The notes below the pieces were generated by a model. It ran no database searches and had not been told where the DNA came from. It saw nothing but the letters and a program-made list of their open reading frames with translations. A DNA stretch of 12,981 bases from Irineochytrium annulatum (lineage: Eukaryota; Chytridiomycota; Chytridiomycetes; Chytridiales; Chytridiaceae), in contig JADGJL010000843.1 of NCBI GenBank assembly GCA_027600665.1, positions 1-12,981 on the forward strand. The letters are read 5' to 3'. Made by a program: the position numbers and the translations under genes. Below are positions 1,126 to 12,981 of this stretch, in pieces (within the stretch, counting starts at the first letter, position 1; each line of letters begins with the position of its first letter).

Positions 1126-2736
1126 ATGGATTCGTTGGTCTGTAAGTTTTCTCTTCCCAAATCGCGCCTGGATCAGGCGATCTCCGCAACCATCCGCAGC
1201 TCTCGACTCCCCCGCAACTCCCCCAATGAACAACGACGGCAACGAAAGCGCCGTCAAGCGCAAGAACGAGACGGGGGCCTCCCCGGCAAAGGTGCGCTGT
1301 CACAGCAGTACAACCACTGAACCGCACCATCATCTCCAGCAGACGTCCTCTGAACATGTCACTGGCGCATGCAGCTCCGGCGCGGTCACGATCAATGTCA
1401 TTGACAATTCGGACAAGAAAGTCCGAGTTCTAAATGCGGCAGGTACTGACAGATGGCCGCCTTCGGCCTCCTCGATCTTCCAGCCGATGCCCTTCGCCTG
1501 ATCCTGGTCTTCCTACATCCGCATCAACTCAATGCGCTCCGTCGCCTGTCTTGCTCCGCCGCCGCCGTCGTCGCATTCACCGACCTCCAATTCGCCAGAT
1601 CCAACCTCCTCCGACTCGCGCCCCGAGGCAAAGACGCATCCCAAGCGGCCGCCCCGTCGTGGTCCAGGCTGCGCTTTGACAAGCTGGACGGCGTTTACAC
1701 CGTCGCCGTGCTCATCATCCATGCACCTGGCGGCATCCACGCGCCTCTCCTGCGGCACCTGCTGTTGGAGGATCCCCGGACGCCTTGCGACGGAAAGATC
1801 GGGCCGGTGAATGACCCGGCGCGGTTGGTGGACGCCGTCGCGCGCGCGTGGGCGATCTCGAGTCATCGTTGGAAGGTGGAGAGAGACGGGTGGTGTCTGC
1901 TAAAGTGGCTGGTGGCGGTAGATGCGTGGGAGGTGGTGGACGCAATGAGGGGCGAGATGGAGACGTGTCAGATGGTGCGGTGGGCATGTAAGTCCGGGAG
2001 CTTGGCGTGCCTGACTGGCTTGCTAAAGTCCGGTATTGAGGTTCGGGTTTCGCTGGCTCGTCTACTTGCTGATATGGCGAACAAGGTGGGCACGGAACCA
2101 TTCGTAACCGCGTGCGAGCACGGGCACGAGGCTTGCGTGAACCTACTTCTCACATCCGTCGAGCACGACGCTGGAACTATCGCGTGGGGCATTAAGGTCT
2201 CCTCCGCCGGTGGCCATTGTGCAATTCTTCGCGCACTGCTACCCCTGTGGAAGCGAGCCGGTGTTGAGTGGCGGCAGCTTCAGCCTCATGCGAAGGATGA
2301 GATCTCTTTTCGGCTCTATCAAGGCTTTGTGGCCGCTTGCGAGCGATGCGACGACGATGTTGCAAGGGTGCTGATGGAGTCTATGTTGCCGTTCGATCCC
2401 CTGCACGATCGGTGCATGGTTATGAGGATAGCGTGCTCTCATGGACGTTTGCCGATCGTTGCGCTCCTTTTGGATTGGGTCACCCAGCGATCTTTGGGAC
2501 AGGAAGGCGTGGTAAGCTTCGTTGATGGGTCGACGGCAGGGCCTATGCGTTCAGAGCGCCTGGTTGATCGCGATGCGCTTCAGTTGGCGCACGACATGGC
2601 CGCTCATAATCATCACGACGATGTCGCGCACTTGTTTGTAGAACACGGCCTTGTTGAGAAACCCGTAAGCAATATTCTCATCTTTCAGACCATGTCTCCG
2701 ACTGATCCCTTCGCTTTGGATCCGCAGGTTTTGTAA
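1126..2736 (+). CDS. F-box-like protein with degenerate ankyrin-like repeats
   Basis: Proposed exons are 1126-1141, 1200-1291 and 1453-2736, giving 463 residues. Both introns (1142-1199, GTAAGT...CCGCAG; 1292-1452, GTGCGC...GACAG) keep the frame. If exon 1 is wrong, the start is ATG 1226 or ATG 1453. The N-terminus is short, charged and Ser/Pro-rich, with a possible basic nuclear signal (VKRKN). It is followed by LDLPADALRLILVFLHPHQL, which fits the F-box pattern LPxxxLxxIlxfL. Such domains recruit Skp1 to SCF ubiquitin ligases. The C-terminal two-thirds carries at least five ankyrin-like helices, for example RWACKSGSLACLTGLLKSG, TACEHGHEACVNLLLTS and RIACSHGRLPIVALLLDW, which probably bind a substrate. 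A 63-nt stretch at 2665-2727 (GTAAGC, CTGATCCC, CCGCAG) could be a last in-frame intron, removing 21 residues and leaving the same stop. The fold assignment is good; the substrate is unknown. The gene converges on the minus-strand gene at 3032. Confidence 0.8.
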
Positions 2737-3031: not shown

Positions 3032-5603
3032 TTAAATGAAATCAGCCTTCTCCGTCTTGTCAATGCCAGACATCTCGCTGTCGGTGCCGATTGAGAACTT
3101 GCCCTTCGGCGCGCCGTGGGACGCCAGGCCAAACTTCTTCCCCACCGTCTCGCCCATATCGTCATTGTCAATCTCGACCTCGGCCATCTCCCCCTTCTCT
3201 GGGTCCGCGCCATTCTCCTCGAGGTGCTGGAACTCGTTCGGGCTGTTGTTGACGTCGCGTCCCTGCTGGGCCGCCAGGTACCGCTTCCGGATGAGGACGA
3301 ACACGACGGCCGTGACGCCAATGACGAAGAAGAGACCCATGACCTGCAGCTGGAGGTTGCCCGGGTTCTTCTTGCCGACGATGACCTGCGTGTCGTCGAC
3401 GCTGATGCCGGAGGTGACGTCGTCGACCGCGCGGATGTTCAGGATGTGGCGCAACTGCGTGTCCAGATTACCCAATCCATTGACGATGGAGTACGTGCCG
3501 GAGAGCATGTCGATCATGGACTGCGAGATGGCCGCGGAGACGTTCAGGTACAGGCCCGCAGTGATGGCGGCGGGCCGGATAGCCGGAGTCGTTTTCGCGA
3601 TGACGCCGCAAAGCTGATGGGAGAGCTCCGAGCAGATGTCGGTGTCTGTATGCATCCGAAGATAAGAGTCAGACGCCGACAAGCCGAGAACAAAGAACCC
3701 TCCAACCTGTGAACAGAGAAGGCCTGGTGGGCACAATGTGGTCGTGCAATTGAGTAATGACGGTCTTCTGATACTGGGGGCTGGCGAGCCACTTTGCCAC
3801 CTTGACGGCAGCTCCCGGGTTCTGGGAGTACTTGTACACACCCGCGCTCCACCCGCCGGCGGCACCGACGGTCATGTTGGCATCGGTGCCGACAACGGGC
3901 CCAACACCCCACTCGAAGGGCAAGTTCATCTTCGCAAGTGTGTGATACGCGGAGGACCAGTGGCGCAGGTACACAGCCTTCCCGTTCGCGAACTTCTCAA
4001 GCGAGGCGGCCTCCGGCGTGCTGCCGTCCGCGGGGGCGCCGACATCGTTCGGGTCGATGATGAAGGCGTTGGTCCACGCGGCGATGCGACTGAGGACCTC
4101 GGCGACGTCGTTGGTGGCGACCGTCACGTTGCTCCCATCTGGCGTGAGGAAGGCGGACCTGTTGGCGCCGTACAACCATTCGGCCGCGGTCGCCGTAAGA
4201 CTTTCGCCTGAGGCCGCGTGAGATTCAGTTTAGACATAGTTTTGCCCTCACCATAGTATTGTCCGGCAACGCCGGAAACATCAAAGTTCTCCACGGTTCT
4301 CTCTGACTGCAAAGCGGAGATCGCAGAGGCCTCGATGTCATCGTAGCAGGTAGGCGGGTAAGCCTGATTTGACCTGTCCAGCATGTCCTGGTTGTAGTAT
4401 AGCACGCCGTAGTCCGACGCGGTGGGCAGAGACACTGCAAAACATGTCAGGACGCATACTCATGTGTGAAGATCCACCAATCGCATACCGAGCCTCCCGT
4501 TCACCACGCTGTTATTCAGCACGTCCTGCTGAAATCCCGTCCCGATAGTTTTGTCCCACCCTTGCAGGTCCAGCAGGCAGTCGCCGAGGACACCCGTGTA
4601 CGCGGCGTCCACCATCACGACATCGAACATGCCGCTGATGCCCTCATGGCAGGCATCCAGCACCTGCCGCACGTAGACGTCGTAGCCCTCATCGGGGGAG
4701 AAGACGCGGTGGTCAATCCGGATGGGCGGATTGGCCACGAAGCCGTTGTGGAGGGCGTCGAGGTTCGCCGACGTCTGCGAGGATAGGTACAGGATCGTGA
4801 CGGGCCCCGTCGCGGTTGTGTTGTAGTAGGGGTCCGGGTACGGGTAGCCGCCCGCGATAGTCTTCGGGAGCGGGGTCGCGACGCGTCGGGGCGTGGTCGT
4901 GACCGAGGTGGTGGTAAAGAGAGACTCAGTGCTGCTGAGAACCGAGGCCGACGCCGGAGGCGGGAGGGTGGTCGTCGACGTCGCGAGGACGGAGGACCAC
5001 GTCTGCGGCTGGACGACGGCCGCCGTCGTGGTGGCGGTGACGGCGTGAGAAGTCGCGATCGGGGAGACGGTGGCGGCCGCCAGGGCCGAGGTCGCGACGA
5101 CGGCGGACATGTTGGATATCGAGATCACGTAAGGTCGCGTGCAAAGAAAGGAGGGTGTCGAAGAGCAGTTAACAATGGGATTGCCGCCTGCGTCCCTGAT
5201 TCGGCTTCCTGGTGCTAATCCATAACACACTAATCGATTTACAAAGATTTACATGCAACGCGCTTGGTCTTCCTGGCGCGGTGTGCCAATCCATGACGAT
5301 GAGGCCGTCGGGTACAACGAGACCGATCCGCGGCGCGGCTCTGCTGCCCCTGCAGGCCGTCGTCGTCGCGGCCGTGTTCTGGCCGGCGGCAGCCGGCTCG
5401 GACCTGGTGTACTGCGCTGTCTTCCAGGTTCCAATCACCAGGGGTATGACGAGCCTGCAGGTCGCCATGTCACTTGAGCCGTCGTCGGCATCTTCAACGG
5501 AAGAATGATGCACTGTTGGCGCCCGTACTAGAAATAGAGCAATACATGTATCTGACCTGAGGATGATAATGGAAGTTGTCAGGAGAAATGTGCGTAGTCC
5601 CAT
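3032..5603 (-). CDS. Single-pass membrane protein with a bacterial-type family 1 solute-binding ectodomain
   Basis: Firm exons are about 5200-4489, 4434-4252, 4207-3707 and 3645-3032. The introns are 54, 44 and 61 bp, all phase 1, and the first and last have a CTGAC branch motif. In order, the protein shows a Ser/Thr/Ala/Pro-rich stalk (about 5110-4815) and a complete SBP_bac_1/MalE-type domain (about 4807-3440). Domain landmarks are ITILYLSS-like strand 1, FDVVMVDAAYTGVLGD, LVSLPTASDYGVLYYNQDM, FANGKAVYLRHWSSAY, AGGWSAGVYKYSQNPGAA and IVPTRPSLF. The final helices match the usual MalE-family end, including LNVSAAISQSMIDMLSG. One hydrophobic helix (about 3347-3290, MGLFFVIGVTAVVFVLI) is followed by RKRY and an 85-residue acidic tail with no recognised domain. 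About eight N-x-S/T sequons support an extracellular ectodomain, presumably binding a sugar or other small solute. The ATG at 5603 begins a plausible signal peptide (MGLRTFLLTTSIIIL), but the joins between 5603 and about 5200 are unresolved. The total is roughly 770 residues. Confidence 0.82.
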
Positions 5604-5648
5604 CAAAACAGAAAGTGGTCCGCTTATGGACGGGACTTATCCACAACG
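5604..5648. promoter_or_regulatory. Very short divergent intergenic region, possible bidirectional promoter
   Basis: Only 45 bp separate the proposed minus-strand ATG (5603-5601) from the plus-strand ATG at 5649. Any shared promoter would therefore overlap the 5' untranslated or coding sequence of one gene. The stretch holds small inverted repeats, GTCC(5618-5621)/GGAC(5628-5631) and TGGA/TCCA around CGGGACTTA, which could be a factor-binding site or chance. No TATA box is visible. The plus-strand start is secure by codon usage and frame. The minus-strand start is less so, so the real spacing could be larger. Confidence 0.4.
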
Positions 5649-8600
5649 ATGACTAAAACTGAGGCCCACCCGAACGACAACGACGACGCCGTCGAAGACC
5701 CGTATCTCGTTGCCGTCAGCGGCGGGGTCACCGAGATTGTCGTCCCGGGCGCCCGGGAGAAGCCGGAGGGCGACGGGGAAGGCGGGGACTGCGTTGCCGA
5801 CCAGGTAGGCCAGCCCGCGACAATGTCGATGCAAAGCCTGATCTACTCTTTAAGCCGTCGCCCGAGGAGACCGCCGCGTGGTACACATTCCCGACGCTGT
5901 CATGGCTCACACCCTTCATGCGAACGGCCACCCGCCGTCCTCTGCAGGCCGCCGACCTCTTTCGGCTCCACCCCAAATTCTCGGCAGGCAGGACCACGCA
6001 GAGGATGCGGGACCGCATTGCGCGCGGCATGCGCGAAGCCGGGTTAGAGGATGTTGACGGCCCGACGCGTCCTTTAGCCGGCATGCCGCCCGACGAGGCC
6101 AAGGCACGCAGACGACGGAGGACACGCGCCATAAAGTGGTCGATTTTTTGGGATGGGATCTTGAGCTGGCCCACTGAGAGCGCTGTCGCATTTACTCTGC
6201 ACGCGATGGGATCCATCGGTAACGTGGCCTCACCGATCGTGCTGAATCAGTTGCTCAACTTCCTCGCGGACCCGGGGACCAACGGCAGCGCGTTTGGGTA
6301 CTCTCTCTGCGTGTGCCTCTTCGTCGCGCAGATGATGGTGGCGTTCGGGTGGAATTGCTCGCAGTATATCCAGCGCAACGTGGCTATGAGCGTCAAGGCA
6401 TCCGTCATCTCGGTCCTGTTCCGCAAGTCCTTGACGATCTCGACGCGGGCGAGGGCGGTTTACAACAATGGCCGCACCCTCAACCTTATGGCGTCGGATG
6501 CCTCGAACCTCGAGAGCTTCTACACGTACCTGTACGATATCGTCCTGTTGCCCGCCGAGGTGATCGCGCTCAGCATTCTCCTCATTGTCTACACGGGCCC
6601 CGCAGGCGTCGCGGGCCTGGCTTTCATGGTGGTCTCCGTCGCGGTGCAAATGCTCGCCACGTCGAACGTGTTGAAGTACGAGCGCGATGCGCTTCAGGCG
6701 ACGGACGAGCGCGTCAACCTCACGTCGGAGGTTCTGGGCGGCATTCGCGTGATCAAGTATTTCGCCTGGGAACCCTTCTTCAGTGATCGGATCAACAAGC
6801 TTCGAGACCGCGAGCTGGGCCATATCCGCGTCCTCCGCTACATTATGTCCTCCTTCCTAGGCGTTCTCAACATCCTCCCGACCTCGGTCGCGCTCATTAC
6901 GTTCGTCGTTTACTGGGGCCTCGGCAACAGCTTGAGTTCAGCCACGGTTTTCACCACCATAAGCATCATCAGCGCGCTCCGGATGCCTATCTCGTTGGTC
7001 CCACAGGTGGCTCAGAGGTTTTGGTCGTCCCTCGTCTCGATCGAGCGCGTCGCAAGGTTTCTCGCCGTGGGTGACACCGACTCGCCCCCGGACGTGCATG
7101 CCAGGGACGACCCGGCCTTTGTTGCAGACGACATTGTGGTTGATAATGCGACTTTCGCGTGGGAGGTGGGCACGGCCGAAGAGTTTGACATAGGAGACGC
7201 GGACGAGATCATGACGAAAGCGTTGCCAAAGGCCGCTTCTATCGACACTGTCGGCGGGGATGCGTCTATGGCAGTGGATTTAACGGCTGCAAGCAATTTG
7301 GAAGATGAAGGCGGACAAATCATGCACCTAAAAGATATCGACTTCAAGGCTACACGTGGAACGCTCACCGTTGTGGTCGGTAAGGTCGGTGCGGGAAAAT
7401 CAAGCATCCTCCACGCTATTATCGGAGACATGAAGCGGATCAAGGGAAAGGTTTCGGTAGGGCCCATCTTTGTCTTTCCCTATTTCGCTAAAAGCGTTGT
7501 TGTTCTTCGTCCAGGTCTTTGGCTCCATAGCTTTCGCCTCCCAGACCCCCTGGCTTCAAAACGCGACCCTCCGCGCCAACGTCCTTTTCGGCCAGCCCTA
7601 CGACCCCGCTCGCTACGCGGCCGTCATCCGCGCCTGCGCGCTCGAGCGCGACCTCACGCTGCTCTCGCATGGCGACGCGTCCGAGATCGGGGAGAAGGGT
7701 GTGACTCTCTCGGGCGGGCAGGCAGCCCGCGTAAACCTCGCTCGCGCCGTCTACACGCGTTCCGACATCCTGCTCCTCGACGACCCTTTGTCGGCGGTCG
7801 ATGCGCACGTCGGGAGGACGCTGATGGAGGAGTGCGTGCTGGGCCTGTGCAAGGGGCGGACGGTCGTGCTTGTCACGCATCAGGTGCAGGTTGCGGCTAA
7901 AGCGGACAGGGTGGTGCTGGTTGATAAGGGTAGGGTGGTGGAGGATGGGCGCTTTGCGGAGCTGGCAGCAAAGCCCGGCGGTGCGTTCGCGGCGATGATG
8001 AGGGAGCACGGTGGCGCTGAAGCGGGCGGTTCGGATGCGATGCCGCGTTCGGAGGAGCAAGTTAACAGGCTTGACAAGGACGTTGTGGGAAGCGGTGGAG
8101 CGACCGGGGCGTTGATGACGACGGAGGAAAGGGAAGAGGGAGCTGTTAAGGCGGAGTTCTACGGCGTGTATTTCAGGATGTCCGGCGGCTACGGAGTAGT
8201 GGCCGCGATCGTTCTGGCGTGCATGGTTTGGCAGGTACGGCTTTTATTTGTCATTGCGACGGACGTCGATTATTCACAGTACATTACGCAGGCGGAACGC
8301 GTCCTGACGGACCTCTGGCTGGCGTTTTGGGTGTCACGCGAGTTCAGCGGGTGGACGGATCGCGATTATGTTGCGGGCTTCGGTGTCTTAACTGTGGTTC
8401 AGGTTGCCTTGAACAGTTGAGTGCTGATTTCATTGCATCGCCATTTGAGCATCGCGATAAAAATCTTATTCCTCCCTGTTTGTCAGTTGGCGTCACAATC
8501 GCTATCGCCTTAGTATGCTTAAAGAGCAGCCGGGCCATGCATCATGCCGCAGTCGGTAGTATTTTCACGGCGCCGATGTCCTTTTTTGATGTAGGCTTTC

Positions 8601-10440
8601 TGTCCATTACTGTCTGCTTTGTCGTGGCATAGCTTAAAGCTCAGACAATATTTTCCTAGACTACACCTACTGGCCGCATCATTTCGCGGTTTTCGAAGGA
8701 CTTCGCAGAAAGTAAGCCCTACTGTTCGGCTTCTCGTTTTTTGACCACTTGGCAGCCGACAACATGCTTCCACCTGGATTTCAGTCGTTTTTAGAGTTAG
8801 CCTTCAGCGTTCTCGGTACCGTCGGCTTGATTCTTTATGCAGTGCCTTGGGTCGGATTCTACATTATCGCCGTAATACCGATGTATCTGGTGTTTCTGAA
8901 GATATTCCGGGCTAGTATGAGAGAGCTAAAGCGGCTTGAGTCAAACTTACGGTATGTAGAGTAGGGCCCCCAACTTTCTCTCTTAGCACCTGACCGTTTG
9001 CATTAAAGATCGCCCCTATATTCGTACATCAACGAAATGCTCACTGGGATCTCGACAATTCGGGCCTACGGAGCTGAGAAGAGGTTCATTGAAACGCAAG
9101 AGGAGCTACAAAATAAGGCGAATCGTCCTACCTATATCAAGAACACTGTGGATTCTTGGATGAGTATCCGTGCGGAGGCCTTCGCGGTGGTCCTCATCTT
9201 CATTATTTCCATTGTTGGTTTAGCCATAAAGTAAGTGGTGACCAATTTAACGTGCAAAGCTTGTTAATTCGAACTTTGCGGTGGTAGTGTGAACAGCTCT
9301 TTACTCGGCCTTGCGCTTTCGTACGGTTTGACACTGACCGGCCTGCTAAATGTTCTACTTCGAAACATCGCGGACTTGGAGTCGAGAATGAACTGGTACG
9401 TGTTCAAGATATGATCACCACCTTTGTTAACGAGGTTTGTGGGTTTCAGTGTCGAACGCCTTACCTTCTACATGAACCACATCCCTCGCGAGGCGCCTCA
9501 CGAGGCCACCATCGCCAATGGGCTCGTTAAGCCCTCCTCGACGTGGCCTGAGAAAGGAGAGATCAGCTTTAAGGACGTCTCGCTCCGCTACCGATCAGAG
9601 TTGGATCCCGTCCTCCACAACCTGACCTTCAACATACGCGCCGGCGAGAAAGTCGGGGTAATTGGCCGGACAGGTGCTGGCAAGTCCAGCGTAATCACAG
9701 CCATCTTCAGAATGGTCGAGCCCACTGGCACAATCGCGATCGACGGCGTCGATATTGCTACATTGGGCCTGAACGACCTTCGAACTAAGGTCGCAATCAT
9801 CCCTCAAACTCCGATTCTTTTTGAGGGTACGCTTCGATCCAACCTTGACCCGCTCGGCCGGCACGACGATGCAGCTATATGGGCCGCGCTGAAGCGATGC
9901 TCGTTGAGCGATGCGATCGCGAGGAGCCTTCTTGGTCTTGACGCTCCCGTCAGTGAGTCCGGGGAGAACTTTTCCGTTGGCGAACGGCAGCTTTTGTGCT
10001 TGGGCAGGGCCATGCTCGCCCGGTGTAGAGTCCTCCTTATCGACGAGGCCACGGCATCAGTCGACCGCGAAACGGATAACTACGTTCAGAAGGTCCTGCG
10101 GGAGGAGTTCGAGAGCGCAACCGTCATCTGCGTAGCTCACCGGCTCATGACGCTCGTGGATTATGACCGGATTCTTGTGCTTGACCACGGCAAGATCGTC
10201 GAGGTGGGACGATTCTTTTTTTAATTTATTACCCCATGTTTTGTTACATTTCGCTGACCGTACGCGTAGTTCGATGCCCCTCACGTTCTCCTGTCAAACC
10301 CCGAGTCGGCTATGTCCTCTATGGTTAAAAACACAAGCGTCACAGACGCGGCGTTGATTCGCAAACTGGCAGCTGATAGTTTTAGAGCTAGGGGCTCCAC
10401 TGTACCTGAGGCGGGGAAGTTTTCCGGCCCAACGGAGTAG
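5649..10440 (+). CDS. Short ABCC-family (MRP/Yor1-like) ABC transporter
   Basis: Eleven exons: 5649-5804, 5855-7456, 7515-8234, 8292-8415, 8487-8590, 8660-8711, 8756-8951, 9009-9230, 9288-9395, 9450-10203 and 10270-10440. All phases agree and give 1402 residues. There is no TMD0. The N-terminal segment leads into TFPTLSWLTPFM and RRPLQAADLFRLHP, typical of the ABCC family, then TMD1 (with GGIRVIKYFAWE). NBD1 has Walker A GKVGAGKSS (561-569), LSGGQ (651-655), Walker B DILLLDDPLSAVD with Asp676 where the catalytic Glu would be, and His708. TMD2 contains MSFFDTTPTGRIISRFSKDF and GISTIRAYGAEKRF. NBD2 has Walker A GRTGAGKSS (1167-1175), signature FSVGERQ, catalytic Glu1294 in LLIDEATASVD, and His1325. 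One degenerate and one canonical ATP site is usual for ABCC exporters, which move glutathione conjugates, organic anions or drugs out of the cytosol. An acidic insert of about 60 residues lies in NBD1 before Walker A. The substrate cannot be read from sequence. Confidence 0.93.

Positions 10441-11375: not shown

Positions 11376-12981
<1,606 letters not shown>

Follow-up and report, generated by a model that had tools for sequence, protein, structure and literature searches.

Locus and gene model

The window analysed here, a stretch of 12,981 nucleotides of Irineochytrium annulatum (Chytridiomycota, Chytridiales) on contig C917 of a 26.9-Mb assembly, carries a receptor gene headed by a solute-binding protein (SBP) domain, together with genes for an ankyrin-repeat protein, an ABC transporter and a protein kinase (Table 1). 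The coding sequence of the SBP receptor gene runs from 5110 to 3032 on the minus strand in four exons, and the spliced protein of 639 amino acids is identical (100%) to the NCBI record HK101_011202. The first-pass annotation had described a bacterial-type SBP displayed as a eukaryotic single-pass membrane protein, a description that is confirmed here along with its parts. From the span that it gave (3032..5230), the 3032 end stands and the 5' end is corrected to 5110, where the deposited model begins, 5230 being 120 nt upstream. Three or more introns had also been noted inside the domain; three were found, all GT-AG and all in phase 1. At the corresponding junctions (codons 208, 269 and 436) the alignment to relatives and to bacterial heads is gapped by at most one one-residue gap, and this smooth alignment supports the splicing of the gene.

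Table 1. Features of the SBP receptor gene and its neighbours in the window.
Feature	Position	Strand	Description
Exon 1	4489..5110	-	Deposited start codon, Ser/Thr-rich stalk (residues ~1-90), first part of SBP domain
Intron 1	4435..4488	-	54 nt, GT-AG, phase 1, codon 208; no counterpart found in C602 (7tm_3 paralogue)
Exon 2	4252..4434	-	SBP domain including D215 (column of T. thermophilus D118)
Intron 2	4208..4251	-	44 nt, GT-AG, phase 1, codon 269; column and phase as in C602
Exon 3	3707..4207	-	SBP domain with conserved sequon N284, W352, G386-G387-W388
Intron 3	3646..3706	-	61 nt, GT-AG, phase 1, codon 436; column and phase as in C602, absent in C751A
Exon 4	3032..3645	-	Last SBP helices including R459 (column of R356), linker, transmembrane helix, basic stop-transfer, acidic tail ending EKADFI, stop codon
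Intergenic interval	5111..5648	.	Between SBP receptor gene and divergent ABC transporter gene (ABC start read by eye)
ABC transporter gene	~5649-10440	+	ABC_membrane/ABC_tran type, intron-broken, divergent from receptor gene with ~540 bp between; limits read by eye
Ankyrin-repeat protein gene	1450-2736	+	Weak, sub-threshold F-box match
Protein kinase gene start	~11376-12981	+	PF00069, Ser/Pro-rich N-terminus, cut by contig end

Architecture of the protein

The SBP domain occupies residues ~100-508 and is built of two lobes followed by C-terminal helices. It scores above the curated cut-off of the Pfam family SBP_bac_1 and shows the SBP fold with both lobes, as expected of a family 1 protein. 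When the head was compared with the PDB by phmmer an E value of 1e-34 was obtained, and a profile built from five heads reached 8e-64, a match that is far beyond chance. The complete fold noticed at first reading, with both lobes and the C-terminal helices, was recovered by Pfam and in the predicted structure. The latter is an AlphaFold (AF2) model calculated from a 28-row alignment that took 21 of 25 loci (L030, L035, L044 and L045 were left out), with a mean pLDDT of 74.7, against 35.6 from a 7-row alignment; it presents the SBP head in an open state and the tail as disordered.

Behind the head, residues 536-554 form the sole stretch that exceeds the hydropathy cut-off of 1.6, the helix itself extending over residues ~533-555. 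It is followed by the basic motif RKRY and then by an acidic tail, which numbers 84 residues when counted from 556 (85 in the first-pass annotation), contains 18 D+E and 10 K+R, ends in EKADFI and gave no Pfam domain match. Stalk, single helix, stop-transfer motif and tail are thus all in place. With one helix, and with PF00003 (7tm_3) unmatched in the window protein at E values up to 10, the protein falls outside the class C-type GPCRs. Of the seven N-glycosylation sequons, six lie in the ectodomain and the tail has one, N568.

By hydropathy, a convincing signal peptide was found neither in the deposited window model (peak 1.93) nor in its relative P0003 (peak 0.56). The relatives P0002, P0004 and P0007 do have one by the same measure (peaks 2.77, 2.28 and 2.5, respectively), and the deposited models of P0005 and P0006 begin within the SBP domain. 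A search of the region 5' of 5110 for an upstream exon with a signal peptide yielded nothing convincing: a strict filter left 0 combinations, and a lax one left 33, among which the 15 listed include none with a donor from a list of seven consensus donors. A missing 5' exon that encodes a signal peptide could lie in 5111..5648.

A single-pass family with a conserved tail

Six further Chytridiales proteins were recovered, from Chytriomyces hyalinus, Chytridiales sp. JEL 0842, Chytriomyces sp. MP71, Physocladia obscura, Entophlyctis sp. and Obelidium mucronatum, and the succession of head, helix and tail is common to the window protein and all six (with models incomplete in the head for P0005, P0006 and P0007). 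P0003 was recovered by one homologue search alone. With about 8,000 candidates scored in each search, no homologue outside Chytridiales was returned, and gut-fungal sequences were absent from the homologues. On this shared architecture the window gene is a member of a clade and not an isolated oddity. As a separate observation, the deposited models of P0005, P0006 and P0007 look faulty, and P0007 is without a stretch of the C-lobe, probably through a fault of the gene model.

In P0002 and P0004-P0007, the five members most similar to one another, helices are on average 74% identical, tails 64%, heads 59% and stalks, if present, 34%; between the window protein and the other members identity is 39-46% for heads and 29-43% for tails. 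The C-terminus reads [DE]F[IV] in all seven members, and the last residues E-K-[AD]-[DE]-F-[IV] are likewise found in 7/7, including P0003, the rest of whose tail aligns poorly. The motif NEFxHL[DE] occurs in six of the seven, and YSIV or YVIV in five of the seven tails, that of the window protein not among them. The YSIV/YVIV motif resembles what we take to be a YxxPhi sorting signal. For the end of the tail, [DE]xPhi-COOH, there is presumably a likeness to PDZ ligands of class III, and hydrophobic C-termini can also serve as ER-export signals. In the ectodomain, sequon N284 is kept in all seven members and N470 in five, in keeping with synthesis of this part in the ER.

Kinship with seven-helix receptors of the same genome

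With the window protein as query against its own genome, relatives were found on contigs C751 (two genes), C602 and C549. Matches to 7tm_3 follow directly after the SBP exons, on the same strand, at C751:11766-12467, at C751:8072-8599 and 8647-8784, and at C602:39404-39925 and 39922-40101, one of these pieces with a Pfam E value of 4.6e-36. Since the matches lie right behind the SBP exons, the two C751 genes and the C602 gene are assigned, by their 7tm_3 match, as SBP-headed class C-type receptor genes. On C751 (locus L018) the two genes stand in tandem. The C549 gene (locus L020, ~3650-6261, plus strand) encodes an SBP, a Ser/Thr-rich stretch and one strong helix, after which come basic residues and then a further, long frame. 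Close to where this frame ends, a second hydropathy window just exceeds the cut-off. The gene is probably a second, distant single-pass SBP gene with a very divergent head.

Two of the three introns of the window gene, those at codons 269 and 436, agree in alignment column and phase with introns of the 7tm_3 gene on C602, and the codon-208 intron is not shared. The two matches differ in quality, given that the paralogue exon models came from a small, purpose-made splice aligner and are rough, that of C602 having been corrected by hand. The codon-436 match comes from the unaided splice model of C602; this intron is present in C602 and the window gene and absent in C751A. At codon 269 the C602 intron was set by hand from the sequence, its donor lying 6 nt before that of the first-pass model, and the column in which it falls changes with the position given to a one-residue gap. 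Donors at the corresponding place in C751A and C751B were read by eye. The chance of at least two coincidences between sets of three and seven introns over ~1,005 sites is ~1e-4. Taken with the grouping of the fungal heads described below, the shared introns suggest that the single-pass and the 7tm_3 designs probably descend from one intron-bearing fungal gene, one acquired module probably serving two membrane designs. The distinction drawn at first reading between this protein and class C-like receptors thus holds in part: it has one helix and no PF00003 match, yet the relatives of its head in the same genome sit on 7tm_3 genes, one of which shares two intron positions.

Ancestry of the heads

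A maximum-likelihood tree of 34 rows took in 10 of the 25 loci of a first set (the rest being mostly Mesorhizobium near-copies, and L045 scoring 40.9) and 9 of the 12 of a second. The bacterial rows were gathered by patterns and profiles of the same SBP family, and the fungal rows are the sampled Chytridiales heads alone. In this tree the seven single-pass heads form a clade (100/100), as do the three 7tm_3 heads (100/100), and all eleven fungal rows lie on one side of a branch supported at 99/99, within a 22-row branch (100/99) that also holds heads of Thermomicrobiota, Chloroflexota and Pseudomonadota. The C549 row covers 47% of columns, and its branch there is very long. The fungal rows group again (99/98) in a second tree, of 24 rows, which includes the corrected C602 model and omits C549 and L044 (L044, partly out of frame, is in the 34-row tree and absent from the AF2 alignment). 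The root as drawn in this second tree sets them opposite the bacteria, so that their nesting relies on the distant rows present in the 34-row tree. When the 7tm_3 heads were forced together with the bacterial rows L052 and L053, a grouping that we chose for the test, the arrangement was rejected (p-AU 0.008). The bacterial ancestry proposed in the first-pass annotation is therefore borne out, insofar as both trees set the sampled fungal heads apart from bacterial sugar SBPs as a single group, and because the family is spread across bacteria we infer a transfer from bacteria to fungus.

Contamination was considered as the source of the window gene and ruled out by the introns, the conserved sequon N284, the Chytridiales relatives and the ankyrin, ABC and kinase neighbours, in agreement with the first-pass annotation, which had argued from introns and sequons. 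Furthermore, the SBPs L002, L003, L004 and L008 of the same assembly (of eight loci, L001-L008) fall far from the window gene in the 34-row tree. The assembly also holds intronless family-1 SBP genes (33 matches) and importer permeases, some in adjacent pairs, on bacterial-looking contigs (C1, C2, C99, C126, C137, C192, C214, C226, C325, C436, C547, C657 and others), which probably represent a bacterial companion or contaminant in the culture.

The binding site

In the Thermus thermophilus protein, D118, W287 and R356 are residues mutated in deposited structures according to the PDB titles. These columns correspond to D215, W388 and R459 of the window protein and are conserved in all seven single-pass heads and in the three 7tm_3 heads. 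Other columns have drifted. At D70 the window protein has Asp and the other six members Glu; the W73 column is changed in 7/7 (Tyr in two, Val in five); and the Y250 column is Ser in 6/6 members with letters, P0007 having no letter in the Trp248 and Tyr250 columns. At the D70, W73 and Y250 columns D, W and Y are kept in the three 7tm_3 paralogues and in all eight bacterial rows of the alignment. As far as the available text of one study goes, the hinge residue Arg404 of LpqY contacts trehalose, its Ala mutant shows no binding, and the residue in the D70 column is implicated in closure (PMC7949145). R356 of Thermus is presumably the equivalent of LpqY Arg404. By its alignment columns, then, the single-pass clade keeps the hinge and has part of the site, or its rim, altered; a disaccharide ligand cannot be assumed given this drift, and a different ligand for the clade is plausible.

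Proposed function and alternatives

We favour, with a probability of about 0.55, the reading that the window protein is a type I single-pass surface receptor of Chytridiales, with a Venus-flytrap sugar-binding head of bacterial origin and a conserved tail that engages a partner, which captures or senses a ligand. In such a scheme, a flytrap head acquired from bacteria by a fungal lineage would have been used both in 7tm_3 receptors and in the single-helix form; the open head would close on a small ligand, probably a saccharide; and the tail would engage a trafficking or signalling adaptor, its fixed partner in the cytosol, and would hand it the event or the cargo. The protein would thus act at the cell surface by capture or sensing instead of feeding an ABC importer. 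Of this scheme, the architecture, the fold, the ancestry of the sampled heads, their link to the 7tm_3 genes and the conservation of tail and hinge residues come from computation; surface location, ligand class, closure and the role of the tail are inferred. Several findings count against the surface receptor: the signal peptide missing by hydropathy from the window model and P0003, with no convincing upstream exon; the drift of the pocket; a tail that is disordered and has no Pfam domain; and the lack of YSIV/YVIV in the window tail. For the kinship part, the codon-269 match rests on a hand-set donor and the placing of a gap. A more specific version, put forward tentatively, would have a bacterial flytrap with its pocket re-tuned for a different ligand, signalling or being trafficked through the [DE]F[IV]-COOH tail and derived from the same intron-bearing gene as the 7tm_3 receptors, so that one bacterial gene founded two designs.

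In class C receptors the flytrap heads function in pairs, as dimers, and the strongest rival is that the single-pass protein is a co-receptor, which would pair head-to-head with the SBP-headed 7tm_3 receptors, tune their response and signal only through them. The two kinds of head are sister modules in one genome, and a pocket that has drifted in the single-pass clade and not in the three 7tm_3 heads would suit a non-binding partner; the columns of R356, D118 and W287, conserved in 7/7, would however be needless for a pure partner, and the tail, which in five members shows as much conservation as the head, points to a separate role inside the cell. Such a co-receptor is doubtful, and sugar sequestration, in which saccharides would merely be concentrated at the surface for ordinary sugar transporters, is somewhat less probable still. 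The tail without a Pfam domain would suit it, as would the module and its membrane anchoring, which are as in the SBPs of gut fungi, sequestration being among the roles speculated in the available text on those proteins (Seppala et al., 2016, PMC5168858), but a simple tether needs no tail conserved like the head with a fixed C-terminus.

A binding subunit of an ABC importer, perhaps working with the divergent ABC transporter gene next door, is suggested by the adjacency of the two genes and by the role of the SBP family in bacteria. Two places in that neighbour, however, match PF00664 (ABC_membrane) and ABC_tran, and an intron splits one of the two, an arrangement that we take to be the layout of a full-length exporter. 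Permeases of PF00528 gave at least 18 matches in the assembly (18 of the 118 candidates scored), every one in an unbroken frame and not one of them on C917, C751, C602 or C549. The nine permease contigs look bacterial, and seven of them bear intronless SBP_bac_1 genes as well. From these gene contents an importer role for the window protein is unlikely, and we give it very little weight. Just as improbable is that the protein arose from a 7tm_3 receptor by truncation and now drifts without function: introns shared with a 7tm_3 paralogue and a changed pocket speak for such a remnant, but seven species retain head, helix and tail with a constant C-terminal motif.

Relation to known systems and significance

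Membrane-anchored SBPs of fungi are already known as a kind, and the window gene is not unprecedented in this respect. In gut fungi (Neocallimastigomycota) many type II SBP homologues are transcribed that bear one or more helices at the amino or carboxy terminus and are akin to the palatinose and trehalose/maltose group that includes Thermus thermophilus, with other importer components absent; sequestration, contact with transporters and chemotaxis were speculated as their roles, and almost half of the gut-fungal class C receptors bear an SBP head, according to the available portions of that study (Seppala et al., 2016, PMC5168858). Genes for SBP-like proteins and class C receptors rise in co-culture, their function being called unknown in the part of the report at hand (PMC8665504). 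The window protein is likewise a type II sugar SBP with a terminal membrane helix in a fungus, but it comes from a different phylum, and no conserved tail is described for the gut-fungal proteins in the accessible text (PMC5168858). Eight putative Glutamate-family receptors of Allomyces macrogynus have SBP_bac_1 heads, as given in the available text (Krishnan et al., 2012, PMC3251606). With fungal class C GPCRs of this sort, as far as they are described there, the window protein shares the Pfam head, and local 7tm_3 genes group with it, one sharing introns; it differs in having one helix in place of 7tm_3 and in the D70/W73/Y250 columns, changed apart from Asp70 and kept in the three local paralogues. 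Among bacterial importer subunits, the alpha-glycoside-binding protein of T. thermophilus (PDB 6J9W series) is ~24% identical by structural alignment, and its W73 and Y250 columns are not kept in the window protein; LpqY of Mycobacterium tuberculosis (PDB 7WDA), which partners the SugABC importer, is more distant.

In the literature searched, which was mostly open-access with preprints outside its scope, none of the papers listed was recognised as describing a clade of single-pass SBPs in Chytridiales whose tail is conserved. As far as this search goes, the conserved-tail clade, the altered pocket (Trp73 column, 7/7) and the introns shared with a 7tm_3 form are new. The flytrap-headed receptors of eukaryotes are commonly traced back to binding proteins of bacteria, through events that are old and hard to read. 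In these fungi the bacterial relatives, the 7tm_3 form and the single-helix form are still alignable, the latter two seemingly sharing introns, so that the path from importer subunit to receptor may be open to direct study, and the window gene offers a concrete candidate for the perception of sugars by zoosporic fungi.
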